Source: Solibacillus sp. FSL R7-0668
GTDB lineage: Bacteria; Bacillota; Bacilli; Bacillales_A; Planococcaceae
Reading direction: 5' to 3'
Length of the DNA: 64,000 nt
Assembly (NCBI RefSeq): GCF_038006205.1
Contig: NZ_JBBOUU010000001.1
Span: 436,001 to 500,000, forward strand
Within the stretch, counting starts at the first letter, position 1. The number at the start of each line of letters is the position of its first letter. A program made the translations under genes and the position numbers. This document shows positions 5,628 through 23,303 of this stretch, piece after piece. The notes beneath the pieces are model-generated. The model did no database searches, was not told the origin of the DNA, and saw only the letters and a program-made list of their open reading frames with translations.

Positions 5628-5635
5628 CCGTAAGC

Positions 5636-7811: not shown

Positions 7812-7865
7812 AAATGATTAGAAGCAATCTGAAAAACCATGTTTCTTAAAAATTATTTCTATTGT

Positions 7866-7898
7866 AAAACCACTAAAAACGTTGTTAGTGGTTTTTTC
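7866..7898 (+). terminator. Terminator of the MFS gene
   Basis: Stem AACCACTAA (7868-7876) / TTAGTGGTT (7885-7893) followed by T6. Confidence 0.85.
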
Positions 7899-7927
7899 TT
7901 TTCCCGTTAGAAAAATCAGCCCTTCTA

Positions 7928-7996
7928 TTGACAGAAAATTCTAACTTCGTATATAATTTTTGGTATTACCAATGAATTTTAATTGTATTACCAAAA
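7928..7996 (+). promoter_or_regulatory. Sigma-A promoter with FadR-type operator at the start point
   Basis: TTGACA (7928-7933), 18 bp, TATAAT (7952-7957). The start point would fall inside the palindrome TTGGTATTACCAA (7960-7972), which fits the GntR/FadR-type core TGGTnnnACCA. A second, imperfect copy TTGTATTACCAA lies at 7983-7994, 22 bp on. The position predicts repression by steric block, probably by the adjacent gene's own product. Confidence 0.75.
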
Positions 7997-8013
7997 GCAA
8001 AGGGGAAGAGGAA

Positions 8014-8697: not shown

Positions 8698-8717
8698 AAA
8701 CGCTGGAGGTATGGTAA

Positions 8718-9335: not shown

Positions 9336-9388
9336 AGGGGCGAATTATAAAAGTAATGCATGCAAGAAGGTTCATTTATACTAAAACT

Positions 9389-9426
9389 GTGCCAGCCCAC
9401 ATCAGGACTGGCACTTTGTTTTTTCT
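9389..9426 (+). terminator. Terminator of the fadR-like/hydroxylase operon
   Basis: GTGCCAG (9389-9395) / CTGGCAC (9408-9414) then a T-rich tail. Confidence 0.8.
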
Positions 9427-9469
9427 TTATCGTATTCTTAAGGTATAATTGATTTTAAGAGGTGATAAA

Positions 9470-10378
9470 ATGGATACTCCTATTTATAGATTTCAAGATA
9501 TGATAGATTATTTTGATCGTAAAGGTATTACATATACATCAGGTACAGAAGATATTGTATCTTTTCTGTCTAAAAATAATTATTTTTTTAAGCTTATCTC
9601 TTATAGAAAAAACTTCACTAAAAACAATAAAGACCAATATACTAATGTTTCTTTCGAATTATTAAGCGATTTAGCATCTTTAGATATGCAATTACGCTAC
9701 CTCTTAATGAAAATGGCTTTAGATTTAGAACATAGAATTAAAACTATAATACTTGCTGAAATCACCAATAATCTTACAGAAGATGGGTATTCTATTATTG
9801 ATACATTTATAGCAACATCTAAAGACCCAACTAAAAGAAAAAAAGACATACTCGGCTATTCAAAATACTCCAAGTACAGTTCCACGCTTTACGAAAAATA
9901 TAAAGCACATACACCTATCTGGGTTGCTTTTGAAACAATGTCTTTTGGGACTCTTATTGATTTTGTTGAGTTTTATTTAAAGCGTAATGCCGAATCCGAA
10001 TATCATTATTTAAGTAAGAATCTATATTCAATTAAAAATATAAGAAACACAGCTGCTCATAGTTCTTCTCTTTTAAATGAAATTGTTGAAGATATTGAGC
10101 AATTTGATAGTAGTGAACTCGTTACTACATATGTATACAAAAGAATCCGTAATAAAACTTCCGCTAAAAAGAAACTAAACAATTTCAGAATTTATGATAT
10201 GACAGTTCTCTATATTATCTATGATCAGTTAATGCCTAAAGGTAGAACAAAATCAGAAAGAAAAAAAGAAATCTATAAATTTTTACTTCGAGCAAGAAGA
10301 AATAATGATTTATATTTAAAACATAATCAACTTCATTCTATCTATACATTTTTCTGCAAAATTATCTTGCCTAAATAA
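9470..10378 (+). CDS. Abi family protein (Abi_2/AbiD-F type, HEPN)
   Basis: 302-residue soluble protein of the Abi_2 family, whose lactococcal founders AbiD and AbiF abort phage infection. It shows LSKNNYFFKLISYRKNF, LRYLLMKMALDLEHRIKT, and the HEPN-type R-x4-H motif RNTAAH at residues 192-197, the presumed RNase active site. ATG at 9470 follows AGAGGTGAT; the frame extends 7 codons upstream without a ribosome site. TATAAT at 9444-9449 may be its -10. It is more A/T- and Lys-rich than its neighbours and is framed by two terminators, which suggests a separately acquired defence gene. Activity is inferred. Confidence 0.8.
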   Translation: MDTPIYRFQDMIDYFDRKGITYTSGTEDIVSFLSKNNYFFKLISYRKNFTKNNKDQYTNVSFELLSDLASLDMQLRYLLMKMALDLEHRIKTIILAEITNNLTEDGYSIIDTFIATSKDPTKRKKDILGYSKYSKYSSTLYEKYKAHTPIWVAFETMSFGTLIDFVEFYLKRNAESEYHYLSKNLYSIKNIRNTAAHSSSLLNEIVEDIEQFDSSELVTTYVYKRIRNKTSAKKKLNNFRIYDMTVLYIIYDQLMPKGRTKSERKKEIYKFLLRARRNNDLYLKHNQLHSIYTFFCKIILPK

Positions 10379-10447
10379 AATTACTTGCATTTAAATCTGT
10401 TTTAAACATATAATAAAGTACATGAAAAAATCCGTACGCGATTTGTA

Positions 10448-10491
10448 AAGGCTGATTTTCTAAAAAGAAAATCGGCCTTAGTTTTTTTTTC
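10448..10491 (+). terminator. Terminator of the Abi gene
   Basis: A 14-bp stem AAGGCTGATTTTCT (10448-10461) / AGAAAATCGGCCTT (10466-10479) with one wobble pair, four-base loop, then T9. Confidence 0.9.
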
Positions 10492-10538
10492 GCATCTACC
10501 TACGACACAATTTACCGAAACCTAAGTAAATGGCAGTT

Positions 10539-11264
10539 TCAAACCGCACTCAAATATAAATTTAACGAAGCTTCAACTTCCTTTGCGACAAGTTCAACAA
10601 ATTCCTCGTAATTCTCGGTTGTATGTGCCTTATCTAAAGCATTGTAGTACGCTAAACGATTTTCGACACGAATAACAATTGGGGGATAACCTGATTTCAT
10701 TAATCCTAAGTTTAATAAAAGGCGAGACATACGCCCATTGCCATCAATAAATGGATGGATCCCAACAAAAATTGCATGTAGCATAGCACCTCGTACAATG
10801 GGATGTAAATTTTGCGCTTCTCCGTCATACCAAGTCATTAAAGCATCCATTTGCTCTTGAATTTTAAAGGGTGGTGGCGGTGTATGAGCAGCCCCTGAAA
10901 TAAAGACTTGCTGATCTCGGTAAACACCCGCATAGCTATCATCAATCCCTTTTAAAACAAGTCGATGTAAGTTTTTAACTTGCCATTCTGAAAAAGGCTC
11001 TTCTTTATGCACGACATCTTCAACATAAGAAATCGCATCTCGGTGATTGATGACTTCTAAATGTTCTCTCATCGTCTTACCACCAACCGTAATGCCTTCA
11101 AGTACGACCTTTGTTTCATTAATAGTTAAGGTATTGCCCTCGATCGCATTTGAGTTATACGTCCATTCTAAAAATAACTTTTCACGTAGGCTTTGTACGG
11201 TATATTTCGGTAGTGGCCTTTTTACATCCAACTGCTGTTTCTTTAAATCCATTTGTTTGAACAA
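10539..11264 (-). CDS. Fic family protein (AMPylator-type)
   Basis: Fic-domain protein with an N-terminal Fic_N region. The catalytic HPFIDGNGRMSR is intact, including the essential His and the phosphate-binding GNGR, and an inhibitory-helix motif SNAIEGN sits in the N-terminal part, as in self-inhibited class II Fic enzymes, which transfer AMP to a target protein. The open frame reaches ATG 11306 (255 aa), but AAAGGAG (11274-11280) fits best a TTG start at 11264 (241 aa). It is monocistronic; no antitoxin gene is adjacent. Target unknown. Confidence 0.82.
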   Translation of the reverse strand: MFKQMDLKKQQLDVKRPLPKYTVQSLREKLFLEWTYNSNAIEGNTLTINETKVVLEGITVGGKTMREHLEVINHRDAISYVEDVVHKEEPFSEWQVKNLHRLVLKGIDDSYAGVYRDQQVFISGAAHTPPPPFKIQEQMDALMTWYDGEAQNLHPIVRGAMLHAIFVGIHPFIDGNGRMSRLLLNLGLMKSGYPPIVIRVENRLAYYNALDKAHTTENYEEFVELVAKEVEASLNLYLSAV

Positions 11265-11424
11265 AATTTTCATCTCCTTTATAGATGAATGTTTATTAAT
11301 TATCATATTATATGTTAATCTCTTTTTGTCTATTTCTAATGAGAAAATTCTAAAACGATACAGTTCGCATAATATATCTAAGTATGGATTTTATTTATCA
11401 TTCAAATCTTACATCATTTGAATA

Positions 11425-11574
11425 TTACTTTATCTTTTCCAAATTTAAAATTTGAAGCGTATCTCCATGTCGAATAATGACTTCTTCTTCACTCCACTTT
11501 TTAATATACGATTTAAATGTCTTTTTGTTGTGCCAATCAAATGAAGCGACTTCATCTAACGTTCGTGTTTCAAT
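11425..11574 (-). pseudogene. Fragment of a Crp/Fnr-family regulator (C-terminal HTH part)
   Basis: The minus strand reads about 49 codons to a TAA at 11425. The peptide runs TRTLDEVASFDWHNKK, FKSYIKKW, EEEVIIRHGD, LQILNLEKIK, which matches the HTH-plus-wing end of Crp/Fnr proteins (tl.evA..., s.yikkw.eE.vI, l.I.n.ekl). An in-frame TAG (11575-11577) and another TAG at 11611-11613 break the reading upstream, and no sensory domain or start is present, so it is a relic. Confidence 0.45.
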
Positions 11575-11713
11575 CTACTCAATATTTACCTCAACAGATG
11601 CAAATGTGCACTAATAGGCTGTTAAACATGTAGCTACAGAAGATAGGGCATTTACAAGGAAGCTGTCGCAGAAACAACGTTGCAGCAAATAAATGAGCCC
11701 TTTATTAGATAAC

Positions 11714-11760
11714 AAAAGAGCTTAGAGAACATTGATTATTTATGTCCTTTAAGCTCTTTT
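11714..11760 (-). terminator. Probable terminator of the ATP-grasp gene, now separated from it
   Basis: Perfect 11-bp inverted repeat AAAAGAGCTTA (11714-11724) / TAAGCTCTTTT (11750-11760). If the integrated element is removed, it lies about 35 nt downstream of the stop of the ATP-grasp gene now at 22266-23303. Confidence 0.5.
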
Positions 11761-11776
11761 CAAAAACTTCACTTAC

Positions 11777-11793
11777 TTATGATACGGTTCACC
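11777..11793 (+). repeat. Left att core (attL)
   Basis: TTATGATACGGTTCACC, exact copy of 22239-22255. To its right GTGACAATTTAA would, in the recombinase frame, encode Val-Thr-Ile-stop. Confidence 0.7.
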
Positions 11794-11823
11794 GTGACAA
11801 TTTAAGAGGCAAAACACAAACTA

Positions 11824-11860
11824 AACGAGCTTGCAACCACAAGCTCGTTGTTTGTTTTCT
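11824..11860. terminator. Hairpin terminator downstream of lnu
   Basis: AACGAGCTTG (11824-11833) / CAAGCTCGTT (11840-11849), six-base loop, T-rich on both outer sides; serves the minus-strand lnu gene and could act on the plus strand too. Confidence 0.7.
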
Positions 11861-11900
11861 TCTATATAAAGAATCACTGTTAGTACAATAAGGACTTTTT

Positions 11901-12704
11901 CTATTCATTCATATAATGTAACAGTTTTTCGAAAAAATCATTGCTAACAGTTAGTTGATATCGTCTTTCAAGAAGTTTATACAGTTCTATAATGAAGAGT
12001 AAGGAATTTTTGTACGCTTCGTGTAGTTCTGATTTCTCTAATCGAGCAGTAGTCTTTCTAAACTTTTCATAGCTTTCAGAACTAATTTCCTTTTCAAGAT
12101 TTTTAGTCATATTGAGCCAGTTATCAGCGTTTTCTTCCACTATTCGAATGAGTTGCAGAATGCTTTTTTGGAATTGTGATAGAAGTTCCAACGAACGAGC
12201 GTATTCTCCTCTTTTGAGAACATTAATCCCCATCAACCATAGGTTAGAAAAATTATTCAATAAAAAATTAACGTTTTCTTCTGTCAGTCTTTTTGGCCCT
12301 GAACCGCCTAATCCTGATAAATACTGCTCTAATTGTCCTGTTTCATCATAAATGAACATAGATTTTGTATCAGGAAAGAAACCCGTTTCTTTGAACGAAG
12401 GAATGATATTCATTTCCCTTTCAGAAAGGAAATGAAATTCACCACGTATTAGATTTTCAAAAATCACTACTTCCGTACCGTACTCATTTTGGTAGAGTAA
12501 TGAGTATGGAGCGACTTCATATAGCCATTTTGCTGAATCAAAAGTGGAAACCGTGTCATCTTTTAGGAAAACATAAAATTCTATATCAGAGTATTGATCG
12601 CCCTCTCCTTTTGTAAAAGAGCCATACATCATACAAGCAGATATGTTTTTATCTAACTCGACCAGTTTCTTAACCCTTGCTATTAGTTCTTTTTGTTTTA
12701 ACAA
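11901..12704 (-). CDS. lnu: Lincosamide nucleotidyltransferase, Lnu(B)/Lnu(G)-like
   Basis: 267 residues, the usual length of Lnu(B) and Lnu(G), which adenylylate lincomycin/clindamycin. The N-terminal nucleotidyltransferase signature GSFTKGEGDQYSDIE (residues 28-42) provides the metal-binding Asp/Glu; NEYGTEVVIF, LIRGEFHFLSE and FSNLWLMGINVLKRGEYARS follow as I recall them from Lnu(B). It appears a diverged homologue, not identical. Start is TTG at 12704 with GAGGAG 6 nt upstream. It is preceded by a long leader with a terminator and short reading frames, suggesting drug-induced attenuation. Resistance spectrum is inferred, not shown. Confidence 0.82.
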   Translation of the reverse strand: MLKQKELIARVKKLVELDKNISACMMYGSFTKGEGDQYSDIEFYVFLKDDTVSTFDSAKWLYEVAPYSLLYQNEYGTEVVIFENLIRGEFHFLSEREMNIIPSFKETGFFPDTKSMFIYDETGQLEQYLSGLGGSGPKRLTEENVNFLLNNFSNLWLMGINVLKRGEYARSLELLSQFQKSILQLIRIVEENADNWLNMTKNLEKEISSESYEKFRKTTARLEKSELHEAYKNSLLFIIELYKLLERRYQLTVSNDFFEKLLHYMNE

Positions 12705-12741
12705 TTTAATCTCCTCTTTCTTAATTTAGTTTAGGGAGAAT

Positions 12742-12777
12742 AAAAAATCCTCCCAAATGATTTTGGAAGGATTAGTC
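12742..12777 (-). promoter_or_regulatory. Attenuator terminator with overlapping antiterminator strand
   Basis: On the transcript AATCCTTCC (12773-12765) pairs with GGGAGGATT (12754-12746), followed by a T-run: an intrinsic terminator about 40 nt before the lnu start. Its 5' arm is part of GACTAATCCT (12777-12768), the exact complement of AGGATTAGTC at 12867-12858, so the two hairpins exclude each other. Confidence 0.75.
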
Positions 12778-12857
12778 AAATAGCATTTTTACCATACTCA
12801 AATAAAGCCATTTAGCTATTTAGCATTAAAGTAATATAGTATATAGAAAAATGGGCA

Positions 12858-12959
12858 GACTAATCCTAAATTTTTTAATCTGAAATATGCTATTTCAAAT
12901 TCTGAAAAATTAGGTTAGTTCTTCATTGTCCACCCATCATTCCTTTCATTTATAGTATA
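12858..12959 (-). promoter_or_regulatory. lnu leader: promoter, short upstream ORFs and antiterminator strand
   Basis: A weak -35 (TTAATT, 12983-12978) and -10 TATACT (12959-12954) precede AAAGGA (12946-12941). Two very short frames follow: ATG-GGT-GGA-CAA-TGA (12937-12923) and, overlapping it as ATGA, ATG-AAG-AAC-TAA (12926-12915). Just after them CTAACCTAATTTTT (12918-12905) can pair, with two single-base bulges, with the region around AAAAATTTAGGATTAG, which would hide the antiterminator strand. This is a 1-2-3-4 attenuator layout controlled by a stalled ribosome. Confidence 0.65.
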
Positions 12960-12989
12960 ACAATTTTAACATCTCTAAATTAAGAATTC

Positions 12990-13589
12990 AAGTTATAGTA
13001 GCTAACAATCAAAACTACAAACTGTGAAGAAATATACTTAAACTCTATTGCCCCTATAGTTTAAGTGGGTTCCTCTTTAACTTATTTTAATCGATTTTTC
13101 TTTATGAATTCATCGAAGTCGCTATCAACATTCTTTACTAACCGATTTTGATTAAACTTCTCATTATATTGTTCCTTTCAATTTCTATACTGTTGCCTTC
13201 TAAACGAATTTCAATTCTCACACAATTTGTTCAACTAATATTTTTTTTACTTCTCACAGTTTGTGAATACAAATATATGCAAATGTCTAATCGAATAACA
13301 ATTATAATCACTAATCTAATTTGAAATAGATGCGCAAACATATTGCGATTATGAATACAATTGCAATACAACTCACTGGCAAATATATTCATGAATAACT
13401 TTACGATTATATTCAAACAGTAATTGCTTATCTAATTACAGTTCTATTCGCACATCTACTTTAAATCAATACATAAATATATTATTACGAATAATACAGT
13501 CACAATATAATTCGCATACAAGTTTAACCGCGAATAGATTTCCGATTTCATTTGGAACAGAATCGCATATTTCAACCAAATAGCAGTTG
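12990..13589. other. AT-rich, mostly non-coding stretch of the element
   Basis: About 600 bp between lnu's promoter and the end of the broken replication gene. Apart from a possible 31-codon gene remnant near 13082-13177 it shows only short AT-rich words (variants of GAATACAAT, ATTCGCA, TTGCGAT) without clear periodicity. Its place beside a replication gene allows a replication-origin role, but nothing specific proves it. Confidence 0.4.
13082..13177 (-). pseudogene. Possible gene remnant (31 codons, no start)
   Basis: Minus-strand frame between TGA (13180-13178) and TAA (13084-13082) reads KEQYNEKF, NQNRLVKNVDSDFDEF, IKKNRLK: plausible protein composition, but no ATG/GTG/TTG with a ribosome site. 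It may be the tail of a lost element gene or chance. Family not recognised. Confidence 0.25.
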
Positions 13590-13730
13590 TTATTTAAACT
13601 TCGTGTATAAGTCATTCAATGGGTTTTTAAAGTGACGTGGAGCTTGAGGATAGTTCTTTGGAATCGTGATAGGGTTTATATTTAAGTCGCCTAAATAATT
13701 TAGCATTTTATTATAAACGTATTTTGAGTA
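13590..13730 (-). pseudogene. 3' part of the replication-initiator gene cut by IS66
   Basis: About 47 codons ending in TAA at 13590. The peptide starts after the IS66 boundary with RSYSKYVYNKML, then NYLGDLNINPITIPKNYP and a short basic tail. It continues, in the same reading frame once IS66 and one target duplication are removed, the protein encoded at 16103-16960. LNINPITIPKN-like ends are common in gene II/X-type plasmid and phage replication proteins. Confidence 0.75.
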
Positions 13731-13738
13731 GGAACGTT
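13731..13738. repeat. Target-site duplication, left copy
   Basis: GGAACGTT immediately left of the IS66 end; identical copy at 16103-16110. Eight-bp duplications are the rule for IS66. Confidence 0.9.
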
Positions 13739-13775
13739 GTAAGCCCCCAATCAAATAACGCATATAAACACCCTG

Positions 13776-13815
13776 GCACCTCCGGTACGATAAACGTATC
13801 AATTTAAGGAGGTGC
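13776..13815 (+). promoter_or_regulatory. IS66 leader hairpin covering the ribosome site of tnpA
   Basis: GCACCTCC (13776-13783) and GGAGGTGC (13808-13815) are perfectly complementary; the second arm contains the GGAGG site for the ATG at 13822 and is followed by T6. RNA entering from outside would hide the ribosome site and may also terminate. Confidence 0.65.
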
Positions 13816-13821
13816 TTTTTT

Positions 13822-14016
13822 ATGCCAACGAATCAACCGACAATTGTGCCAGTTTATCTGGATCCTCTGCCAACCAAACAATCTTCGATGTCTTCTTTCC
13901 CACATGCAGCTGGGCCAAGCTGTGTGATTAAAACCGCTGCGGCTGAAATTTCCTTTTTCAATGGTGTAGAGGAGCGCATCATTCAAGCCGTGATAAAGGA
14001 GCTGATTCAAAAATGA
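13822..14016 (+). CDS. tnpA: IS66 accessory protein TnpA-like (short)
   Basis: 64-residue product, first gene of the IS66 set. It is shorter than the 100-plus residues of classical IS66 TnpA and I see no clear HTH; the conserved end is EISFFNGVEERIIQAVIKEL. GGAGG at 13808-13812 precedes the ATG. The stop overlaps the tnpB start as ATGA, implying translational coupling. Firmicutes IS66 copies often have such a short first frame. Confidence 0.7.
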   Translation: MPTNQPTIVPVYLDPLPTKQSSMSSFPHAAGPSCVIKTAAAEISFFNGVEERIIQAVIKELIQK

Positions 14017-14366
14017 AGCACGATTTTACGCGTGTGCAAAATATTTATATTGTCTGTGGAAAAACAGACATGCGTAAAGGGATTGATGGTCTAGCGACCC
14101 TCGTTCAAGATTCATTTGAACTCGATCCTTTTAGTGACTCGATTTTTTTATTTTCAGGTACAAGTAAGGACCGCTATAAGTGTCTTTATTTTGATGGGGA
14201 TGGCTTTGCGTTGCTTTATAAAAGGCTAGACAGTGGCCGATTACAATGGCCGAAAAATGAAAAAGAAGTGCGCAATCTCTCTCAACAGGAATTGCGTTGG
14301 TTATTAGAAGGCTTATCTCTTCAACAACCAAAAGCGATTTTAAAATCTGCAAAAGGTGCCTTTTAA
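14013..14366 (+). CDS. tnpB: IS66 TnpB (Orf2) accessory protein
   Basis: 117 residues with the hallmark of the family: YIVCGKTDMRKGIDGLA near the N-terminus, SIFLFSGTSKDRYKCLYFDGDGFALLYKRL in the centre, and RLQWPKNEKEVRNLSQQELRWLLEGL near the end. It overlaps the preceding gene by 4 nt. It is required with TnpA and TnpC for transposition in studied IS66 members; the biochemical role is unclear. Confidence 0.93.
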   Translation: MKHDFTRVQNIYIVCGKTDMRKGIDGLATLVQDSFELDPFSDSIFLFSGTSKDRYKCLYFDGDGFALLYKRLDSGRLQWPKNEKEVRNLSQQELRWLLEGLSLQQPKAILKSAKGAF

Positions 14367-14416
14367 TCCTAACCTTCCAAATGGTATAATTAACCTCATA
14401 TTATTCGAACGGAAAT

Positions 14417-16015
14417 GTGGTGAATCAGATGAGTGCAGAAGCAACTGAAAAAATAATTCAGTTATTAGAAGAACAACTCGCTTTTATGAAACAACAAAAT
14501 CAAGAGCTTTCGAAAAAATTAGATGCATCGTTCGCCCAAAATAAATACTTATCTGAACAAGTTCGCCAATTAACAAAAATGATTTATGGTTCACGCTCAG
14601 AGAAGTCAAAATACCAAGCACCCGATGGGCAAGTCTCGCTATTTGAGGATGACCCATCTTTTAATGATTCTGAGCAAACAGAAGAACAAAGCACGGAAAC
14701 TGTAACCTATACAGTGACCCGTTTAAATAAAAAGAAAAAGCGCAATGATTCATTCATAGAAGGTGTGGAAGTAGAGGAAATTCACCATCATCCAACCAAT
14801 CTCGAATGTGACTGTTGCCAAAATCAACTACAAAAAATTGGCTCCACAATTGCTCGGGAAGAAGCAACATTTATTCCAGCTAAGTTGGTGCGCGTGCAGC
14901 ATATTGAGCATGCCTATGAGTGTAAGCAATGTAAAAAAGATAACGAGCAAAGTTCGTTTATTCAACGCGGAAAAGCGCCAACGGCGGCGATTCCTCGTAG
15001 CATTGCAGGGCCAACGGTGTTGGCAAAAGTAATTTATGATAAATTCTCGCTTTATCTACCGCTTTATCGTCAAGTCAAAGAGTGGACACGTGCAGGATTA
15101 ATCACGAATGATAAAAATCTTTCGAATTGGGTCATTCGTGTAGCTGAAGATTGGCTATTGCCAATTTACGAGGAAATGAAAAATGTCCTTTCGGCCAAAA
15201 CACTGCTTCATATTGATGAAACGGTTGCTAAAGTATTAAATCGTTCCGATGGAAAACGTCCACAATCAAATGCGTATAACTGGGTATTCCGATCCGTTCC
15301 AACAGAGGGGCCAGTGGTTATTCTATTTGAGCATGCATTAACGAGAAGTCGAACGGTATTGGAGAACTATTTGGCTGACTTTAAAGGCACGGTTATTTGT
15401 GATGGTTACGCTGCCTATGATAAGTTATCCAACATTACGTTCGCTAACTGTTGGGCGCACGTTCGACGCTATTGGGGAAAGGTTGAAAGCAAGAATGGGC
15501 GTATTGGCTTGGCTTACTGCAACAAACTCTATGTATTAGAACAAAAATTCAAAGGACTACCACCGAAGCAACGACAAAAAATGCGATGGCGATATGCAAG
15601 AAAGGTTATTCGTAAGTTTTTTGGCTGGCTTGAAAAGTCACAGTTCTTTGGTAAAAATGCATTAGCTACGGCAACCGAGTATACGTTGAATAGAAGAAAA
15701 GAGCTGAAAGCCTTCCTGTATAATGGGCAGATCGAAATTGATAATAACCCAGCAGAAAATGCGATTCGTCCAACGGTAATCGGTCGAAAAAATTGGCTCT
15801 TCTCTGTAAGTGAGGCGGGTGCAAAAGCGAATGCGATTTGTTTGAGTTTAGCGGAAACAGCAAAAGCAAACGGAATTGATTTCTATCAATACCTGGTAAA
15901 GCTTTTAACGGAACTGCCGAATTTACCAATTCACCAGCAACCTGAATTATTACAAGAGTACATGCCTTGGTCGGCTAAAATTCAAGCAACATGTGCCAAA
16001 ATCAAAGCAGCATAA
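14417..16015 (+). CDS. tnpC: IS66 transposase TnpC
   Basis: DDE transposase of 532 residues: N-terminal Leu/Gln-rich coiled coil, zinc-finger region (LECDCCQNQL ... YECKQCKKD), then the catalytic domain with LLHIDETVAKV (first Asp), VICDGYAAYDKL (second Asp) and IDNNPAENAIRP (Glu). The frame is full length and uninterrupted. The open frame begins at 14417; the later ATG at 14429 is also possible (short of a good ribosome site). It lies 50 nt after tnpB and ends inside a strong terminator. Confidence 0.93.
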   Translation: MVNQMSAEATEKIIQLLEEQLAFMKQQNQELSKKLDASFAQNKYLSEQVRQLTKMIYGSRSEKSKYQAPDGQVSLFEDDPSFNDSEQTEEQSTETVTYTVTRLNKKKKRNDSFIEGVEVEEIHHHPTNLECDCCQNQLQKIGSTIAREEATFIPAKLVRVQHIEHAYECKQCKKDNEQSSFIQRGKAPTAAIPRSIAGPTVLAKVIYDKFSLYLPLYRQVKEWTRAGLITNDKNLSNWVIRVAEDWLLPIYEEMKNVLSAKTLLHIDETVAKVLNRSDGKRPQSNAYNWVFRSVPTEGPVVILFEHALTRSRTVLENYLADFKGTVICDGYAAYDKLSNITFANCWAHVRRYWGKVESKNGRIGLAYCNKLYVLEQKFKGLPPKQRQKMRWRYARKVIRKFFGWLEKSQFFGKNALATATEYTLNRRKELKAFLYNGQIEIDNNPAENAIRPTVIGRKNWLFSVSEAGAKANAICLSLAETAKANGIDFYQYLVKLLTELPNLPIHQQPELLQEYMPWSAKIQATCAKIKAA

Positions 16016-16056
16016 TAGCCAGCTTTCTGAAAAAAACGTCAGAAAGCTGGCTATTT
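16014..16056 (+). terminator. Terminator of IS66
   Basis: Perfect 17-bp stem (16014-16030 with 16039-16055; arms AATAGCCAGCTTTCTGA and its inverse), eight-base loop, followed by only a short T-run. Confidence 0.7.
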
Positions 16057-16102
16057 GTCGTGCGTGCAGTCAGGTGCGCTTGTTTTTTGAATTCGGGCTT
16101 AC

Positions 16103-16110
16103 GGAACGTT
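16103..16110. repeat. Target-site duplication, right copy
   Basis: GGAACGTT, identical to 13731-13738, directly after the IS66 right end. Confidence 0.9.
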
Positions 16111-16960
16111 TTGCTGTCGATAAACTTTTATAGGCGGACTTTTTAAGGAATTCTTTAAGAAGCGCTTTATCAGTAGCTTTTAGTGGCGCGTAGCCGATCC
16201 ACTTTTCGGCATATGCATATTTATAATAATCTCCTTGAGGATAAATACTTAAAAGATAGGATTTCAAGTAAGAATAGTAAACACTTTCTTTGAAGTAGCT
16301 TTCCAATTTCATTGGAATAGGGGTTTTACATCTCTTACTTGCCTTATAGTATAAGTGATTATAAAGAAGCCTTACTTCAAAACGTATTACGTCTTTTTCA
16401 TAAGGTTGAAGTTTACAGCGCTTTGCAAACCTTTCAGCTTCTTTATCATACGCAGTTGTTACTACCGATTGCGAATTATGATAAACCGTCGTATTAAAGT
16501 CTTCGAATTCACCTGAAGCATTTTTCTTACCTGTACACTTTATTTGATGACGGTATTTTTCAACATGTTTCTTAATTAAATGGAAATATAACTTGCGCAA
16601 TTGTTTATTTTCAATTGTTACATCGAATCGGTAGTCTAATCTCGCGAGTATGTGAGAATCGTAATGCGTTGCGTGATTAAACAACAGTATTAAGCACTCA
16701 AGTATATTTAACTTGATCTCCCTGTAATCCGTTTCAGTTATGTCAGATTTTTGTAACAGCGCCACCGCATCAACAAACAATGATAAATACCATCTCCCAT
16801 GTCCTTTTGTGATTTGAGGGACTAACGCAAAATTAAAGTATTCACCGTATACCTTTTGGAAATATTGATTTAAATGTTTGTAATCCGTTCCAAATTTAAT
16901 TTGCGCTACGTTTACATCTTCATCAGTAATTGGAAACTTCATTAAAAAAGTATGAATCAT
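16103..16960 (-). pseudogene. 5' part of a replication-initiation protein gene (gene II/X-like), disrupted by IS66
   Basis: The first 286 codons of a protein that would be about 332 residues long; the frame then runs into IS66 and stops at 16070 after ten foreign residues. Segments ILARLDYRFDV, TVYHNSQSVVTTAYDKEAE and KDVIRFEVRLLYN are like replication-initiation proteins of the filamentous-phage gene II/X (Phage_CRI) group, which nick and start rolling-circle replication. ATG at 16960 has AGGAGTG upstream. Family call is from motif resemblance; the function is probably lost here unless the truncated product works. Confidence 0.6.
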
Positions 16961-17275
16961 ATGTGATCACTCCTAATCTATTAGTATGTAATTAGGTTTA
17001 TCTAACTCTGTGATTTCATAGTATTTAGGAGTTTATTTTTTTCCCAATTCAAATATATTTATTCTTCACGAGAACGTGCGCACGAGGACACAAAGCACCG
17101 CTAATAATGAAGCTTGTCGCGCCAAATCAATATGCCATTTTCAACGAACAAATATATATGAGAATAAAAATGAAAGGGATAAATTATGATTGTGGGAATT
17201 TAGAGGTTTTCAAAAGACATTATACATACAATTTATTATTTGAAAAGCCCTTCTAATGTCGGACACTGTTCAATA
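16961..17275. other. Region upstream of the replication gene
   Basis: About 315 bp without a gene. It holds a 10-bp palindrome CGTGCGCACG (17075-17084) inside a wider CGAG/CTCG-like context, and AT-rich sequence. It could contain the replication gene's promoter and a nick or origin site; no known nick motif was recognised. Confidence 0.4.
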
Positions 17276-17306
17276 CAAAAAAGACCGAGAACATACCGTC
17301 CTCGGC
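17276..17306 (-). terminator. Terminator of the XRE regulator gene
   Basis: Minus-strand CCGAG ... CTCGG followed by TCTTTTTT; short stem. Confidence 0.6.
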
Positions 17307-17313
17307 ATAGAAG

Positions 17314-17742
17314 TCATTTTAAATTCTTCAACTTATTAATTGCATTACCTAACTCAGAAAGTTCATGCCACTGCGATTCTCTGCTCCATTCAAATTCAAC
17401 TATCCTTTCTATCATGTTCAATACCATCATTGTTTCTTCTCTCGTCAAAATCTTATCTGCCACTCGTAACGGCGACTTAAACATTAATGAGTAAAGATCC
17501 AAGACTCCCTCCTGCTCAGCTAACCCTTCTGCCAAGGTCATTAAATCTACCTTGAGCGCGCGCGACAGCTCCATCAAAATTGGAAAAGACGGACACTGCT
17601 TTTCGCTGCGCTCCAAGCGTGAAATATACGAGGGGCTAATTCCTGTCGCCGCGCTCAATTGTTGCAACGTCATGCCACGTGCTTTACGCAAACGTTTCAA
17701 TTTCTCCGCAAATGCTTCATCAAATACTTTTACCGCTTTCAT
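17314..17742 (-). CDS. XRE-family HTH regulator of the element
   Basis: 142 residues from the ATG at 17742, which follows AGGGGG by 10 nt (the frame goes 7 codons further, without a ribosome site). The HTH spans about residues 12-66: FAEKLKRLRKARGMTLQQL, ATGISPSYISRLER, then PILMELSRALKVDL. The C-terminal half is a helical domain of unknown type with LTREETMMVLNMIERIVEFEW. It stands between the replication gene and the cargo/recombinase side, facing left, and is the likely controller of the element. Confidence 0.85.
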   Translation of the reverse strand: MKAVKVFDEAFAEKLKRLRKARGMTLQQLSAATGISPSYISRLERSEKQCPSFPILMELSRALKVDLMTLAEGLAEQEGVLDLYSLMFKSPLRVADKILTREETMMVLNMIERIVEFEWSRESQWHELSELGNAINKLKNLK

Positions 17743-17763
17743 ATCTTTGATTCCCCCTAACAT

Positions 17764-17778
17764 ATACCGATCTGGTAT
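17764..17778. promoter_or_regulatory. Candidate operator of the XRE gene
   Basis: Dyad ATACC-GATCT-GGTAT, 22 bp upstream of the XRE start codon and in the space to the divergent cargo gene; a plausible autoregulatory site. Confidence 0.45.
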
Positions 17779-17867
17779 TCCAATATTTGTGTTTTTATAT
17801 TTTAATTAGATTAAAGTTTTTTATAACTTCTAAATAGAAATGAAACATATAAATTAGGAGATGTTTT

Positions 17868-18533
17868 ATGTATATTCATGCTATTATCAAATTCGGAAAT
17901 CGAAAGTGGATGGATGAATTTCAAAAAGGAAAAATACATTTTAAGCAACTTAAACAGTTTCAAGACTTTGAAAAAAAACATGATAATGCAAAGCGCGGAG
18001 ATAAATATGAGGGCGCTCATATGGTTCTTTCGCCAGCACAAAACAAAATAGTTATTGGAAATTATGAGTTAGATAGCAATGACTTAGTGGGACCAATACG
18101 TACTTATAAAAATTCATCTTCCAAGAATCCTATTTTTTGCTTATATGCGCTTACAGAAGAAATTGTAGAATCATTTTTAACATCCAATAGAACATTTTTA
18201 ATCGATCCTAAAGTTCAAACTTTTGGTGACACCGCTGTATATATAACGGATTTTAAAGAATTTCTTAATAGATTTGAATCTGCTCTCAACAAGCAATTAG
18301 GTATAGGTTATAGCCGAGGTCTTGTTGAATATGTCGATGTTAATGAGGTTAATGGCGAATGGGGAGCTTTTCGTAAACCAAGAGAGTATGATTTTCAATC
18401 TGAATATAGACTTTTAATAAACTCACCTATTAATGACCCGAGTATTGACCTGGATATTGGTGATATAAGTGACATAACCATCTCTATGCCTATCGAAAGC
18501 ATTCAAAGTATAGAACTCCAGACTAAACTTTAA
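17868..18533 (+). CDS. Hypothetical cargo protein of the element
   Basis: 221-residue soluble protein of unrecognised function. It opens MYIHAIIKFGNRKWMDEFQKG and has FKQLKQFQDFE, KRGDKYEGAHMVLS, and a late EYRLLINSP. The combination 'K-F-G ... short-line ... RGDxxEG ... EYRLLI' recurs in uncharacterised proteins of Firmicutes islands, in my recollection. GGAG precedes the ATG; no membrane segment or signal peptide. It diverges from the XRE gene, which may control it. A role in cell or phage defence would be a guess. Confidence 0.65.
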   Translation: MYIHAIIKFGNRKWMDEFQKGKIHFKQLKQFQDFEKKHDNAKRGDKYEGAHMVLSPAQNKIVIGNYELDSNDLVGPIRTYKNSSSKNPIFCLYALTEEIVESFLTSNRTFLIDPKVQTFGDTAVYITDFKEFLNRFESALNKQLGIGYSRGLVEYVDVNEVNGEWGAFRKPREYDFQSEYRLLINSPINDPSIDLDIGDISDITISMPIESIQSIELQTKL

Positions 18534-18569
18534 TTCTAATGCATAGACATTTCTCGGACAGTTTTTCTA

Positions 18570-18597
18570 TTGACAAATGAAAAAATTTTTTTAAAAT
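18570..18597 (+). promoter_or_regulatory. Candidate promoter reading towards the recombinases
   Basis: TTGACA (18570-18575), 16 bp, TAAAAT (18592-18597). A transcript from here would run through the hairpin at 18661-18782. Confidence 0.45.
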
Positions 18598-18660
18598 TAC
18601 AATTATAAAATTGCATATAGACATTTAACATATGATTTTTTTATGGTTTTTGTATATTTT

Positions 18661-18782
18661 AACTGGTTTATTTAGATACATGTTTTTACTTAAAATGCTT
18701 GATAGCTCACTGGGATTTTTGCGCCCATTTTTGGCTAACTGCGCATTTTAATACATGTGTTTCTAAATAAGCCAGTTTTTTG
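18661..18782 (+). repeat. Long imperfect inverted repeat before the recombinase genes
   Basis: Outer arms AACTGGTTTATTTAG-ATACATG (18661-18682) and CATGTGTTTCTAAATAAGCCAGTT (18754-18777, nearly the inverse); inner arms TTAAAATGC (18690-18698) / GCATTTTAA (18743-18751); apex TGGG/CCCA. A T6 run follows. It may be a terminator, an attenuator or a structured DNA site. Confidence 0.65.
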
Positions 18783-18862
18783 TGCCTTCCCCCTTACATA
18801 GGCTATTGAAGCTTTTTCTTCGTTAGCCTTCCTCAATAAATTCCACGAAAGGATGACCTCTT

Positions 18863-19036
18863 ATGAAACAATCCCCTTCTCTAAACTTCCACGAAGAAAT
18901 CGAAAAACAATTACTAATTGGTACCGATCTTGAAAAGTACCATGCTCGCCATTTTTTAAATACCCTCTCAGAAATGATCCTTAAATATGAAAAAAACCTT
19001 TGCGAACAACATAAACAAGATCAATTAGGAGCGTGA
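18863..19036 (+). CDS. Small protein immediately upstream of recombinase 1
   Basis: A 57-residue frame starting ATG at 18863, 10 nt after AAAGGA, and ending 5 nt before the recombinase ATG (its end holds the recombinase's AGGAG). Sequence: MKQSPSLNFHEEIEKQLLIG, then TDLEKYHARHFLNTLSEMIL and a charged end with one Cys. It is acidic, helical and soluble. Its tight coupling suggests a recombinase helper or excision-control protein. Family not recognised. Confidence 0.6.
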   Translation: MKQSPSLNFHEEIEKQLLIGTDLEKYHARHFLNTLSEMILKYEKNLCEQHKQDQLGA

Positions 19037-19041
19037 TATAT

Positions 19042-20511
19042 ATGCGTGCAGTAGGTTATGTTCGAGTAAGTACAGATAAACAATTAGATAACACTTCTAT
19101 CGCAAAGCAAACCGAAGAAATTAAAAGATACTGTGACTCTAATGACATTACACTCGTTCATATCTTTGACGAAGGTGCTAAATCCGCGAAATCCTTTAGA
19201 AATCGCGATGCATTTAAGGAATTATATTCGTTCATTATGGACAAGAAAAATAAAATTGATTGTGTCGTTGTATATGACTCAGACCGTATTTCGCGCGACA
19301 ATTTAGAGGCTCTTTACATTTATAAGCGCCTCAACGAAGAAGAAATACGACTCATTTGTATTGCTGATAACATCGATACAAGCGACCCGCGTTCAAAGAT
19401 TCTCTATCAAATCATGTCGTTAGTGGCTGAGCTGGAAAGAGATATGATTATTTTCAGGACGAGTTCAGGCATGGAAAAGAGAGCTTCGGAAGGACATTTT
19501 AATGGCGGTATCATTTACGGCTACACATCCTCAAATAAAAAGTTAAAGATTGTCCCTGAAGAAGCAAAAGTTGTAAGCTTTATTTTCGATAAATACGCAA
19601 ACGAACAATGGGGTTATAAAAAGATTGCATCTGCATTAAATACGTTAGGGATTCGTACAAAGAAAGATAATTATTGGACCATTTTTGCTGTAAAGACCAT
19701 TCTTAGTAATCCTATATATATCGGGAATATGAAATGGCGCGGTGAATTAAGGAAGGGCAAACACGCTCCTATTATAGATGTGACATTATGGGAAAAAGCT
19801 CAGAGTATCATGAAATTAAATAGTCATCTTCATGAAAAGATTCACCCTGGTAGCTTTCCGCTGTCTGGTTTATTAAGATGCCCCCAATGTGGCGCGCCAA
19901 TGGTTCAAGGAAACAGCAGTCCGAAGTATAAATATTATCAATGCTCTCGCAACAAAAATAGCGGTTCCTCTGCCTGCTTAGCAAACCTTATCTCAAAGGA
20001 ATACGCTGAAAAAGCTGTATATGAGCAAGTTTTCACTACCCTTCAAAAGCATAATCTAATAGAGCCATTAATTAATACACTCCATTCCTATTCCATAAAT
20101 GAAGTTATGCCTTTGCAACAGCAAATAAAGAAACAGGAAGCAGACTTGGTAGATTTAAAGCGAAAAAGAAAAGAACTCATAAATTGGCGCATGCGGGACA
20201 TTATCACAGAAGAAATCTTTGAAGAGGAGATGCACGATTTACAGCAAGAAGAGCAAGCACTTGTAAAGCAAATAGAAAGCTTGAATCAACAGATAAAACT
20301 TAGTGATAAACAATTCTTAACAACTATTGTTGCGAATTCATTGAAGGACTTCTTACAATTTTTCAGCATGATAAAAGATGATGATAAGAAAATTCTTTTA
20401 CAATCTTTAATTAAAAAAATCCACGTTAATCCAGGTGACAAACCCAAGAACCGAACAATTAAGGACATCATTTATAAATTTGATTTAACGTATTTAAATC
20501 AGGTTATTTAG
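19042..20511 (+). CDS. Large serine recombinase 1
   Basis: 489 residues. Resolvase-type catalytic domain with YVRVSTDKQ (nucleophile Ser), then VVVYDSDRISRD and MSLVAELERDMI; recombinase domain (NTLGIRTKKDNYWT, ILSNPIYIGN); zinc ribbon LRCPQCGAPM ... YYQCSRNKNSGSSAC; then a C-terminal coiled coil. ATG at 19042 follows AGGAG; the GTG at 19033 lacks one. Followed by its own terminator and a second recombinase. It may work jointly with recombinase 2 or be a relic of a multi-recombinase unit. Confidence 0.9.
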   Translation: MRAVGYVRVSTDKQLDNTSIAKQTEEIKRYCDSNDITLVHIFDEGAKSAKSFRNRDAFKELYSFIMDKKNKIDCVVVYDSDRISRDNLEALYIYKRLNEEEIRLICIADNIDTSDPRSKILYQIMSLVAELERDMIIFRTSSGMEKRASEGHFNGGIIYGYTSSNKKLKIVPEEAKVVSFIFDKYANEQWGYKKIASALNTLGIRTKKDNYWTIFAVKTILSNPIYIGNMKWRGELRKGKHAPIIDVTLWEKAQSIMKLNSHLHEKIHPGSFPLSGLLRCPQCGAPMVQGNSSPKYKYYQCSRNKNSGSSACLANLISKEYAEKAVYEQVFTTLQKHNLIEPLINTLHSYSINEVMPLQQQIKKQEADLVDLKRKRKELINWRMRDIITEEIFEEEMHDLQQEEQALVKQIESLNQQIKLSDKQFLTTIVANSLKDFLQFFSMIKDDDKKILLQSLIKKIHVNPGDKPKNRTIKDIIYKFDLTYLNQVI

Positions 20512-20540
20512 AGAAAGGTGCGCATCCTTTCTCTTTTTTT
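20510..20540 (+). terminator. Terminator between the two recombinase genes
   Basis: Perfect 9-bp stem AGAGAAAGG (20510-20518) / CCTTTCTCT (20526-20534), then T7. It overlaps the stop codon of recombinase 1. Confidence 0.85.
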
Positions 20541-20578
20541 CGTTTCATATTAAAATGGCGGTGAAAGGAGGATTTATC

Positions 20579-22342
20579 ATGAATGAAATTAGACAAGTAG
20601 CGATTTATTGTCGGGTGTCGACTGAGGAACAAGCAACAGAAGGTTATAGTATTTCCGCGCAACTACAAACATTACGACAATATGCACAGCTATACGGTTG
20701 GGAAATTGCTGGTGAATATGTCGATGAAGGGATAAGTGGTAAAAACATTACACGTCGCCCTGCAATTCAAAAACTTATTGCTGATGTCGAGAACAATAAG
20801 TTCCAAGCTGTGCTCGTTTGGAAAATCTCACGTCTATCGCGCAACATGTTAGATACACTTACGTTATTAGACTTGTTTGAAGCGAACGATGTAAAATTCA
20901 TTTCTTACTCTGAAAACTTTGATACAGGTACCCCAATTGGACGTTTAGTTGTTCAGCTTATGGCTTCGATTGCTGAAATGGAACGTAATACGCTATCAGA
21001 AAACGTAAAGCTCGGCATGAAGCAACGCGCATATGAAGGTTATTGGAATGGGGGCATCGTATTCGGCTATGACGTCGTCGATAAAGCGTTAGTCATTAAC
21101 GAAAAGGAAGCATTTATTGTTAAATTAGCCTTTGAACTATACGCGGAAGGCAAAGGGTTAAAAGCAGTTGCTAATCACTTGAACAAGGCAGGTTATCGAA
21201 CGAAGCGCGGACATCATTTTTCGGTTAATGGTGTTGCACAGATTTTGGACAACATTATATACAACGGTAAAGTAAGTTGGGCAAAAGTTGAGAATTGGGA
21301 TAGCAAGCGCAGAAAAGGCAAAAACCCTAATCCAATCATTGTTGAAGGTAAACATGAGGCAATTATTCCAGACGACCTTTGGAATATCGTGCAAGCACGA
21401 CGAAATAGTAGGTCCTTTAAACAGCGCCAATCAAACGAACCTTTTTTACTTAGTAGTCTGCTACGCTGTCCTACTTGCAATCAAGGTATGGTGCCAGCCA
21501 TTACTACGTGGAAATCAAAAGACGGCACTAAAAAGAAATACCGTTATTACGTCTGCTCTGACTTTCATAACAAAGGATCATCTGCCTGTCATGCGAACTC
21601 AACGAAAGCATATGAAGCAGAAGCGCAACTCATTGAGCGAATTGAACAATTTGCCCATAGCGAACAACAGCTTTTCTCAAAACTACAAGCTCTTAACACG
21701 ACATCTATTGAATTGCTCCATTCCTTATCTACCGAGCTTGAGGACATAAAAAAACGACTGCTCGAAATACAGTCGCTTCAAAACCAATATTTAGATGCCT
21801 TTGAACAAAAGACGCTTCCCGTTACAATACTACAAGAGCGCCTTCAAAAACTAACAGCTGAAAAGACGGATTTAGAGCAAAGACAAAACGAAATCACCGC
21901 GCAACTAAGCTCTAACGATTCAAAAGTAATACAGCCTGACTTGATTCAAACGTTGCTATTACGTTTTTTAGATGCTTATAAATGCGCGCCACGAGAACAT
22001 CAGAAACGGTTACTACAATTACTAATTGGACAGATTACGGTAAAACAGCCAACTGGCAAACCGCGCTCCATCGACACCATTGAACTCGACTTCGATTTTT
22101 CAGAAGTAAACGTTTCGAAGACATTTACCCTTCTTCACCTTTTGTATCGTGAAGCAAATATGGAAGATGAATTTTCATCCCCAAAATTCGCTTACGATCA
22201 CAAAATGCCACCTTATTTACAACTTTTTTTGCCTCTATTTATGATACGGTTCACCTTACCTAATGCTAAACCAGCATCTTCTCATGAACACAAGCCAAAA
22301 TCTCCTCCGCCACACGATGCGCCAATTCTAGCTCAGAGGTGA
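20579..22342 (+). CDS. Large serine recombinase 2 (probable integrase of the element)
   Basis: 587 residues as read here. Catalytic YCRVSTEEQATEGYSISAQ, VLVWKISRLSRN and ASIAEMERNTLSE; recombinase domain; zinc ribbon LRCPTCNQGM ... YYVCSDFHNKGSSAC; long coiled coil. ATG at 20579 has AAAGGAGG upstream. The 17-bp att core covers codons ending at 22255; the last 28 codons are foreign sequence, antisense to the ATP-grasp gene. In the excised circle the frame would instead read Val-Thr-Ile-stop, giving 562 residues. Confidence 0.9.
   Translation: MNEIRQVAIYCRVSTEEQATEGYSISAQLQTLRQYAQLYGWEIAGEYVDEGISGKNITRRPAIQKLIADVENNKFQAVLVWKISRLSRNMLDTLTLLDLFEANDVKFISYSENFDTGTPIGRLVVQLMASIAEMERNTLSENVKLGMKQRAYEGYWNGGIVFGYDVVDKALVINEKEAFIVKLAFELYAEGKGLKAVANHLNKAGYRTKRGHHFSVNGVAQILDNIIYNGKVSWAKVENWDSKRRKGKNPNPIIVEGKHEAIIPDDLWNIVQARRNSRSFKQRQSNEPFLLSSLLRCPTCNQGMVPAITTWKSKDGTKKKYRYYVCSDFHNKGSSACHANSTKAYEAEAQLIERIEQFAHSEQQLFSKLQALNTTSIELLHSLSTELEDIKKRLLEIQSLQNQYLDAFEQKTLPVTILQERLQKLTAEKTDLEQRQNEITAQLSSNDSKVIQPDLIQTLLLRFLDAYKCAPREHQKRLLQLLIGQITVKQPTGKPRSIDTIELDFDFSEVNVSKTFTLLHLLYREANMEDEFSSPKFAYDHKMPPYLQLFLPLFMIRFTLPNAKPASSHEHKPKSPPPHDAPILAQR
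22239..22255 (+). repeat. Right att core (attR) inside the recombinase 3' end
   Basis: TTATGATACGGTTCACC, exact copy of 11777-11793, 10 bp from the stop codon of the convergent chromosomal gene. Confidence 0.7.
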
Positions 22343-23303
22343 AGCCCACGCAAGAGCAGTTCATTTCCCCTAAAATGTAGGTATCTTGACCATTTTCGTC
22401 GGTATCTAAAATGAAATCCGCTGTCCAAATCAGGGGTAAATCATAGCCGCCGAGTAGGGAGGTGATTTCATCGAGCTGACCTAAAAAGCCCTGTACTAAT
22501 ATTGACCATTCCTCGGGGCTGTCATAGCGATAGTGCGCGCCTGAAAATAGGGTAGCGCTAAAGGCATCGGCATCCTCAGCCGGCTTTTTGTGGACGACAT
22601 TAATCGGCTTGTCGCGCAGCATGAATAAACGGATTTCGCCCTCTTTAATGCGCGGTAAAAATGGCATATCCACAAGCATGCCGTTTGCGCCAATGATGTA
22701 TTGCTGACAAAATATCATGAAATCACCAAGCTCATGGTATTCCACATGGTTATCCTTGGCTTCCGTGCATTTAATTTTGGCATTAAGTGGCACAATGTAA
22801 GTCCCTTCCTCTAATGCATCAACTAATTGTACGCGCCAAATGCCTTCACCTGTTGACCCGCGATTTTGCTTTAATACACGCTCACCATTTGCGAGAGCGC
22901 GCGGGAAGATAGCGTTAAACTCATCGATTGTATAGTAGGCATACGTATCTTCAGGAACGAGTGACGTATGGCGTAGCTTTACTAATGCATCCTTTGCACC
23001 GTAGCAAATCATCGCATCCGGATGTGGCATCCCAATAACACCTGTCGCACATAATTCACGTAGCATATCAAAGTACTCGGCCTCATGCGCTAAGTTCCCA
23101 GGGTTAATGCGCGAAACATACGCTACCGCATTGTCCTTTACATAGTTAAAAATCTCATCACGCTTTTCTAACTCAAAGAAAATAACCTCTGCCTCTTGTC
23201 CACGCTGCTGTAATGCCTTCACCATGGGCATCGTATCACCGCGATATCCATCTGGTCCTTTATCGCTACCACCTTGCACTTCAAAAAATATGACTTTACT
23301 CAT
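22266..23303 (-). CDS. ATP-grasp-type protein (Cj0069 family)
   Basis: 345 residues. N-terminal VIFFEVQGGSDKGPDGYRGDT and a central KQNRGSTGEGIWRVQL (nucleotide-binding loop of ATP-grasp enzymes), then late acidic residues in TADFILD and LGEMNCSCVGF, which fit metal-ATP binding. The call matches the conserved Cj0069 family; ligase substrate unknown. ATG at 23303 follows AAAGGAG. Its last codons overlap antisense with the recombinase extension, and its probable terminator lies across the integrated element at 11714-11760. Confidence 0.72.
   Translation of the reverse strand: MSKVIFFEVQGGSDKGPDGYRGDTMPMVKALQQRGQEAEVIFFELEKRDEIFNYVKDNAVAYVSRINPGNLAHEAEYFDMLRELCATGVIGMPHPDAMICYGAKDALVKLRHTSLVPEDTYAYYTIDEFNAIFPRALANGERVLKQNRGSTGEGIWRVQLVDALEEGTYIVPLNAKIKCTEAKDNHVEYHELGDFMIFCQQYIIGANGMLVDMPFLPRIKEGEIRLFMLRDKPINVVHKKPAEDADAFSATLFSGAHYRYDSPEEWSILVQGFLGQLDEITSLLGGYDLPLIWTADFILDTDENGQDTYILGEMNCSCVGFTSELELAHRVAEEILACVHEKMLV

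Follow-up and report, generated by a model that had tools for sequence, protein, structure and literature searches.

The DNA analyzed here is a stretch of 64,000 nucleotides from the soil bacterium Solibacillus sp. FSL R7-0668 (contig NZ_JBBOUU010000001.1, positions 436,001 to 500,000; the window), which contains an integrated element between positions 11777 and 22255. We consider this element very probably to be a cassette of the staphylococcal cassette chromosome (SCC) type, which carries two recombinases resembling the cassette chromosome recombinases (Ccr), has rlmH as its usual target and is here found at a secondary core. The genome from which the window derives (G000) was analyzed as one of a set of 16 Solibacillus genomes and within a wider family of 261 genomes.

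Ends of the element and its copy at rlmH

A preliminary description of the window had proposed a site-specific integrated element with an exact 17-bp direct repeat at its ends, and both the repeat and the ends were confirmed. The 17-mer, TTATGATACGGTTCACC on the plus strand, is present at 11777-11793 and 22239-22255 with a spacing of 10,462 bp. These were the only two matches in the window when up to three mismatches were allowed, and two copies were reached in none of 100 dinucleotide shuffles. The left copy falls between open reading frames (ORFs), in the stretch previously described as gene-poor, and the right copy lies within the 3' end of a serine recombinase gene, as had been stated. The features that define the element are:

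11777-22255, no strand: very probable SCC-type cassette, 10,479 bp with both cores included; ends exact compared to the identical copy at rlmH of G011
11777-11793, minus strand: attachment core at the far end of the cassette, GGTGAACCGTATCATAA (from sequence)
22239-22255, minus strand: attachment core at the recombinase end, within the 3' end of ccr-2 (from sequence)
11804-11814, plus strand: left arm of the inner inverted repeat, AAGAGGCAAAA (by eye)
22227-22236, plus strand: right arm of the inner inverted repeat, TTTTGCCTCT (by eye)
19033-20511, plus strand: Ccr-1, large serine recombinase of 492 aa, 32% identical to Staphylococcus aureus CcrB and 23% to CcrA
20555-22342, plus strand: Ccr-2, large serine recombinase of 595 aa as integrated, 36% identical to S. 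aureus CcrB and 23% to CcrA

The insertion was established by another Solibacillus species (G011), since an identical element with the same ends occupies rlmH in that genome (G011:C1:3879346-3887452). The two copies match over 1,962 + 6,153 bp (8,115 bp) with 100.000% identity and no mismatches, and the edges of the match fall exactly on both 17-mers. An IS66-family insertion sequence (IS) carried by the window copy is absent from G011. The chromosomes at rlmH of the two species are 78.3% identical across 2,070 bp. The element has evidently been transferred recently and inserted site-specifically at a different place in each species.

The attachment site, which was not recognized in the preliminary description, could now be identified. 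A third exact copy of the core was found in G000 at C1:3950269, which is the 3' end of rlmH (the reading frame ends GEPYHK-stop; NCBIfam RlmH), and rlmH terminates in the core in all 16 Solibacillus genomes. Because the rlmH 3' end carries it in every genome, together with the motif TATCATAA that is reported for SCCmec and enterococcal cassette chromosome (ECC) cores (PMC6222049), the 17-bp attachment core is, judged from sequence, the same rlmH 3' end at which SCC elements dock.

A core with a single mismatch is located at C1:3929275 of G000, on the same strand as the rlmH copy and 21 kb from it. The two enclose a 21-kb SCC-like cassette at rlmH (C1:3929275-3950285), which contains one CcrB-like recombinase (39% identical to Ccr-2), a RadC-like protein, a DUF927 protein whose weak Cch-domain match stays under the cut-off, and a type I restriction-modification-like set that was recognized by eye only. 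Inverted repeats are present on the inner ends of the window element, and their placement resembles that of this and other cassettes (by eye). G000 also has four places with two mismatches to the core, one of which resembles another junction. At C1:1547641-1548520 a core-like junction reads GGTGAGTCGTATCATAA and then GTAAGTGCGGT, and this may represent a third SCC-type locus.

Cores were also observed outside rlmH in a coding context. In G007 and G011 (loci L048 and L052) a gene other than rlmH has the core in frame at its 3' end and terminates in ...GFWIN-x-GEPYHK, and a near copy of this tail with one core base changed is present in G006 (L062). Read by eye, this gene, with a tail like that of rlmH, appears to offer an additional docking site.

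The recombinases and the overlap of ccr-2 with the core

CcrB was the best NCBIfam family for both Ccr-1 and Ccr-2. The ccr-2 ORF (595 codons) crosses the core and ends in host DNA. Relatives of Ccr-2 at E <= 1e-130 were found in seven of the 261 family genomes, including that of the window, which belong to three of 19 genera and have 68-100% identity. Close relatives (E <= 1e-60) were present in four of the 16 Solibacillus genomes. Plasmid-borne relatives had less than 60% identity throughout the 5,000 best-scoring records, and in a genome search with Ccr-2 none of the 12 stretches that fitted a pattern coded for a relative.

The ccr-2 ORF overlaps the core, which is followed by ATAGAGGCAAAA, in all seven elements. 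The overlapped core is that of rlmH in five of them, lies 23 kb from rlmH in G109 and is far away from rlmH in the window copy only. In the integrated state the tails of Ccr-2 vary among the seven genomes. The preliminary description had observed that the recombinase frame, when joined to the DNA inside the left core, reaches a stop after three codons. This holds true, as the frame past the left core reads GTG ACA ATT TAA (V-T-I-stop). The frame beyond the far-end core was found to read V-T-I-stop in G000 and G011 (counted once), V-S-I-stop in G252 and V-M-I-stop in G014, i.e., an in-frame stop at codon 4 in 3/3 distinct elements with an identified far end (those of G109, G134 and G025 were not identified and stand outside this count). 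For core-bounded units lacking Ccr-2, a stop at codon 4 was found in 2/52, both being copies of one cassette, and a stop within four codons in 6/52. A complete ccr-2 gene, with the short V-x-I-stop ending, would thus exist on the circle only.

In the mechanism that we propose, Ccr-1 and Ccr-2 would do the cutting, and a circular form with an attachment (att) site spanning the 3' end of ccr-2 would recombine with a 17-bp core of the rlmH type. In G000 the element would have entered a second core at the edge of an older island, located between a flavin mononucleotide (FMN) reductase gene and an ATP-grasp gene.

The secondary site and the core arrays

The window copy adjoins the ATP-grasp-like gene rather than rlmH. 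Its surroundings contain the following features:

22266-23303, minus strand: ATP-grasp-like gene next to the island (DUF6815, Cj0069 family), named "ATP-grasp" in the preliminary description
11714-11760, no strand: hairpin at the start of the neighboring cassette, homologous to cassette starts in G007 and G011
11353-11369, minus strand: probable decayed core between two small neighboring cassettes, TGCGAACTGTATCGTTT, six mismatches, placed at a homology boundary
10500-10516, minus strand: weak candidate for a decayed core, six mismatches, third-best profile match in the window
10539-11306, minus strand: Fic-domain gene of a neighboring cassette (domain search)
9449-10378, plus strand: Abi_2/AbiD gene of the same island (domain search)

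The ATP-grasp gene is present in eight of the 16 Solibacillus genomes. In three of these (G000, G001 and G002) a core preceded by the common sequence AGCRTTAGRTAA lies just downstream of the gene, and no core was found beside it in the other five (G008, G009, G012, G013 and G015). The gene lies about 75-110 bp from an FMN reductase-like gene, the counterpart of window 5073-5627, in G008 and G009. Because the two genes adjoin there, window positions 5628-22265 constitute an island relative to these two genomes. G012 and G013 resemble this arrangement when the sequence is read, and G015 has other, core-free DNA at this place. Most likely, the ATP-grasp gene was separated from an older cassette by a core before the insertion, a layout that is kept in G001 and G002.

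In the preliminary description, joining of the outer flanks was taken to return the ATP-grasp gene to a terminator hairpin. This hairpin does exist (z -3.5 with DNA parameters; 1/200 shuffles folds as well), but it is homologous to cassette starts. A cassette start in G007 shares 86.7% identity with the hairpin plus core (11709-11791), another in G011 shares 76.6% with positions 11665-11803, and the ATP-grasp protein had no match in either genome. Because the DNA to the left of 11777 is cassette-derived, the hairpin was rejected as a chromosomal or ATP-grasp terminator.

Further to the left, 11378-11533 is 91% like the end of a G011 unit, and 10546-11352 is homologous to a unit with a Fic gene in G005. 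The probable decayed core at 11353-11369 sits where these two homologies meet; it was not among the 15 best profile matches. The weaker candidate (10500-10516) has a profile score of -14.7, the next match scoring -18.3, and is flanked by the Fic-unit homology on one side and by a match to a G006 cassette (10402-10486) on the other. The Fic protein is 91-92% identical in G003, G005 and G013. The Fic-domain and AbiD-type genes of these neighboring cassettes are possibly phage-defense cargo. Since the element sits next to the anchoring ATP-grasp gene, the neighboring cassettes would predate it. A block with FadR and fatty-acid-hydroxylase genes (7907-9425) is found within a core-bounded unit in G001 and G002; no core was found by profile at this block in the window. 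The major facilitator superfamily (MFS) gene at 6621-7811 is 88-89% identical to a cassette gene in G011 and G014. The homology ends near the ends of the gene (6528-7820), the profile found no core there, and we do not claim the gene as a recent cassette.

Cores were searched for with a profile built from 61 sites, and stretches fetched from each of the 16 Solibacillus genomes, 726 kb in total, were scanned. Scores of at least 22 were kept, the best score in window 24001-64000 being -10.6. This resulted in 85 cores in 30 clusters, 16 of which include rlmH. The 14 clusters without rlmH are spread over 10 of the 16 genomes, and nine of the 30 clusters consist of one core each. The counts apply to the fetched arrays only, since the stretches were chosen for containing cores and eight single-mismatch sites were unfetched (G001, one; G002, three; G006, one; G008, two; G010, one).

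Units enclosed by neighboring cores within 25 kb have a median length of 2,188 bp, with 40/55 being at most 4 kb and 23/55 at most 1.6 kb. One to three ORFs of at least 70 aa are present in 31/55 units, exactly one in 12/55 and none in 4/55. Five of the 55 units match Ccr-1 or Ccr-2 and 50 match neither. By eye, the units contain MFS transporters, MerR regulators, QueC, methyltransferases, a quinone reductase and a kinase-regulator pair, and one MNT/HEPN pair was assigned by Pfam. A 1.2-kb two-core unit with an MNT/HEPN-type pair (Pfam) adjoins the copy of the window element in G011 (L080, 8178-9363). In the wider family, 73 of 121 genomes match a 21-base core pattern with at most one mismatch, compared to 0/121 for the reversed control. 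Three or more matches were found in 26/121, and rlmH alone can give one match per genome.

Cores found at many sites, nine of the clusters being single, could instead be dispersed palindromic repeats, terminator-like or of the repetitive extragenic palindromic type, with the units between them arising by homologous recombination or chance; read as sequence, the core with its inverted repeats could indeed fold as a hairpin. However, the junctions in the window fold no better than shuffles, and all 55 neighboring core pairs have the same orientation (two opposite-strand matches, with scores of 27.8 and 32.9, overlapped a stronger core at 9 bp and were dropped as the core's own symmetry). Moreover, among 13 unit pairs, five match from core to core (I00/I48, I04/I40, I19/I40, I09/I37 and I46/I53, the last with one internal deletion) and diverge within about 35 bp of the cores, so that shared units start and stop at cores in different surroundings. 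The remaining pairs are partial (e.g., I42/I47, I02/I26 and I05/I27) or belong to the related arrays of G001 and G002. We therefore regard dispersed repeats as very unlikely.

An element of phage or integrative and conjugative element type, with a serine integrase and an unrelated att site of its own, also has some points in its favor. Large serine recombinases occur in phages and conjugative transposons, the relatives with solved structures include the TP901-1, TnpX and A118 integrases, and the XRE-family regulator of the element matches the phage RstR and TrbA families weakly, with scores under their cut-offs. This explanation is strongly disfavored by the identical element at rlmH of G011. 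Against it also stand the core, which in G000 itself is the end of rlmH, the inner inverted repeats, arranged as in SCC, and the best family match, which is CcrB. None of the element's eight protein genes examined (a short ORF near 18863-19036 was left out) matched a phage or conjugation family above the curated cut-off, and we give this alternative hardly any credence. That the identity with G011 results from contamination or misassembly has a negligible likelihood, for although 100.000% identity across 8.1 kb is unusual between species, the copies are at different loci, each joined without a break to the chromosome around it, the IS66 element is present in only one of them, and a 97% identical Ccr-2 relative in another genus provides a further degree of divergence.

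Several observations nonetheless weigh against the assignment to the SCC type and the role ascribed to the recombinases. The CcrB scores of Ccr-1 and Ccr-2, 222 and 379 bits, are far under the NCBIfam cut-off of 900, and neither protein is CcrA-like. Folding of the core regions is unremarkable (z -0.5 and 0.0). The genomes compared are one per species and include no second strain of this species with an element-free site. The conserved stop at codon 4 may partly reflect common ancestry of the element ends, and this statistic is therefore only suggestive. Excision, circle formation, transfer and mobilization in trans are steps that we infer; none was observed. Finally, the preliminary description held that the junctions make sense only if this recombinase inserted the element, and named both 17-bp copies in relatives lacking the recombinases as evidence to the contrary. 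This applies in part to G001 and G002, where core arrays bound other DNA and no Ccr-2 relative at E <= 1e-60 is present. Because of these arrays, core copies alone are no proof of Ccr-2 action; the insertion itself stands by virtue of the G011 copy.

Integrons are arrays of small units with recombination sites in the same orientation, mostly without a recombinase of their own, and in these respects the Solibacillus arrays are alike. Integrons use a tyrosine recombinase (IntI) and attC sites. By contrast, the recombinases found here are of the serine type, the cores are 17-bp and rlmH-like, genes are in either orientation and arrays occur at several loci, so that these are not integrons as defined, although no search for attC was made. 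A tentative possibility, which we hold to be somewhat improbable, is that SCC machinery serves Solibacillus and its relatives as an integron-like system, in which small units between rlmH-type cores, most of them with one to three genes, would be moved in trans by the Ccr-like recombinases of occasional visiting elements such as this one and stored in arrays at rlmH and several other places on the chromosome. With ccr-2 completed only on the circle, the C-terminus of its product would then report the integration state.

Cargo genes and relation to known elements

The element carries the following genes between its far end and the recombinases:

11901-12704, minus strand: homologue of lincosamide nucleotidyltransferase, 82.0% identical to Lnu(G) (homology)
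12741-12958, minus strand: ncr1575-type leader RNA with terminator-like end, upstream of the lnu homologue (Rfam RF02452, 129 bits; fold z -4.8)
13739-16102, no strand: IS66-family IS (TnpB, transposase) with 8-bp target duplication GGAACGTT; not in the G011 copy
16070-16960, minus strand: rolling-circle replication initiator-like gene, 3' end broken by the IS66 element; intact 332-aa copy in G011
17314-17763, minus strand: XRE-family regulator (homology)
17868-18533, plus strand: 221-aa protein, family unassigned (searches without match)

The 82.0% identity of the lnu homologue is to a plasmid-borne Lnu(G), and its score for the Lnu(G) family is 510 bits, the cut-off being 525. By homology, the gene would have a function of the lincosamide-resistance type. 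The strongly folded ncr1575 leader lies directly upstream and has a terminator-like hairpin at its end; it is possibly an antibiotic-responsive attenuator.

The Rep-like protein itself matched no family in a Pfam search. Of its relatives, two match Rep_trans weakly, under the cut-off, and one of the two also matches G2P above the cut-off. The predicted fold of the relative P0001 (pLDDT 87) matched the rolling-circle initiator RepDE in Foldseek (E 1.9e-4, probability 1.00) and a G2P protein of an inovirus (E 1.2e-7); the query TM-scores were low (0.40 and 0.44). Such a protein would replicate the circle or help its transfer. The 221-aa protein had no match in Pfam, NCBIfam or PADLOC, and among the loci searched it was found outside the window in G011 only. 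No Cch/DUF927 helicase was found among the eight protein genes examined.

The window element is like SCC/SCCmec and ECC in having a core at the rlmH 3' end with the TATCATAA motif, inner inverted repeats, an adjacent pair of Ccr-like serine recombinases, tandem cassettes and an optional rolling-circle rep gene, which is reported in 6/32 ECC (PMC6222049). It differs from them in the low identity of the recombinases to S. aureus CcrB (32-36%), the position of ccr-2 at the cassette end where it overlaps the core, the location of the window copy off rlmH and the lack of a DUF927/Cch gene among those examined. SCC-like elements at rlmH are known from several Gram-positive genera (PMC10581047), and in staphylococci regions downstream of rlmH are partitioned by repeats and include cassettes without known ccr (PMC4723332, PMC8407400).

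Locations outside rlmH have precedents. One Enterococcus faecium chromosome carries ccrAB away from rlmH (PMC6222049), and CcrAB is reported to act at non-canonical sites (Misiura, 2013, as cited in PMC10581047). The CI-ccrDE island of S. brunensis is likewise an SCC-like island with a ccr pair outside rlmH; it targets rimL and has other repeats (PMC10581047), whereas the window element keeps the rlmH core, its identical counterpart uses rlmH and its flank is the DUF6815/Cj0069-family gene, not rimL. The ssrA islands of Dehalococcoides encode a CcrB homologue, DsiB, the 3' end of which always overlaps the att site (attL), its stop and the reason for the overlap being left open there; these islands are likewise tandem, some lack an integration module, and they differ in targeting the tmRNA gene (PMC3146451).

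Among the top-ranked titles of a literature search, which did not extend to subscription papers or preprints, none dealt with cassettes of the SCC type in Solibacillus or with small SCC cassettes in arrays. As far as this search shows, what is new is the genus, the ccr pair, the finding of one element at rlmH in one species and at a secondary core in another, the stop that is conserved across the circle, and how many small units there are at several sites.

SCC is best known as the carrier of methicillin resistance, and the origin of the cassettes and the way in which they gather genes are still discussed. Here, one cassette with a gene of resistance type is found in two species without a base change save for an IS insertion. 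SCC-type cassettes are present across a non-staphylococcal genus, with many small units and with core clusters off rlmH in 10 of 16 genomes. Solibacillus may therefore provide hosts for testing the spread of cassettes, the movement in trans of units lacking ccr, and the overlap between CcrB-type genes and their att sites.

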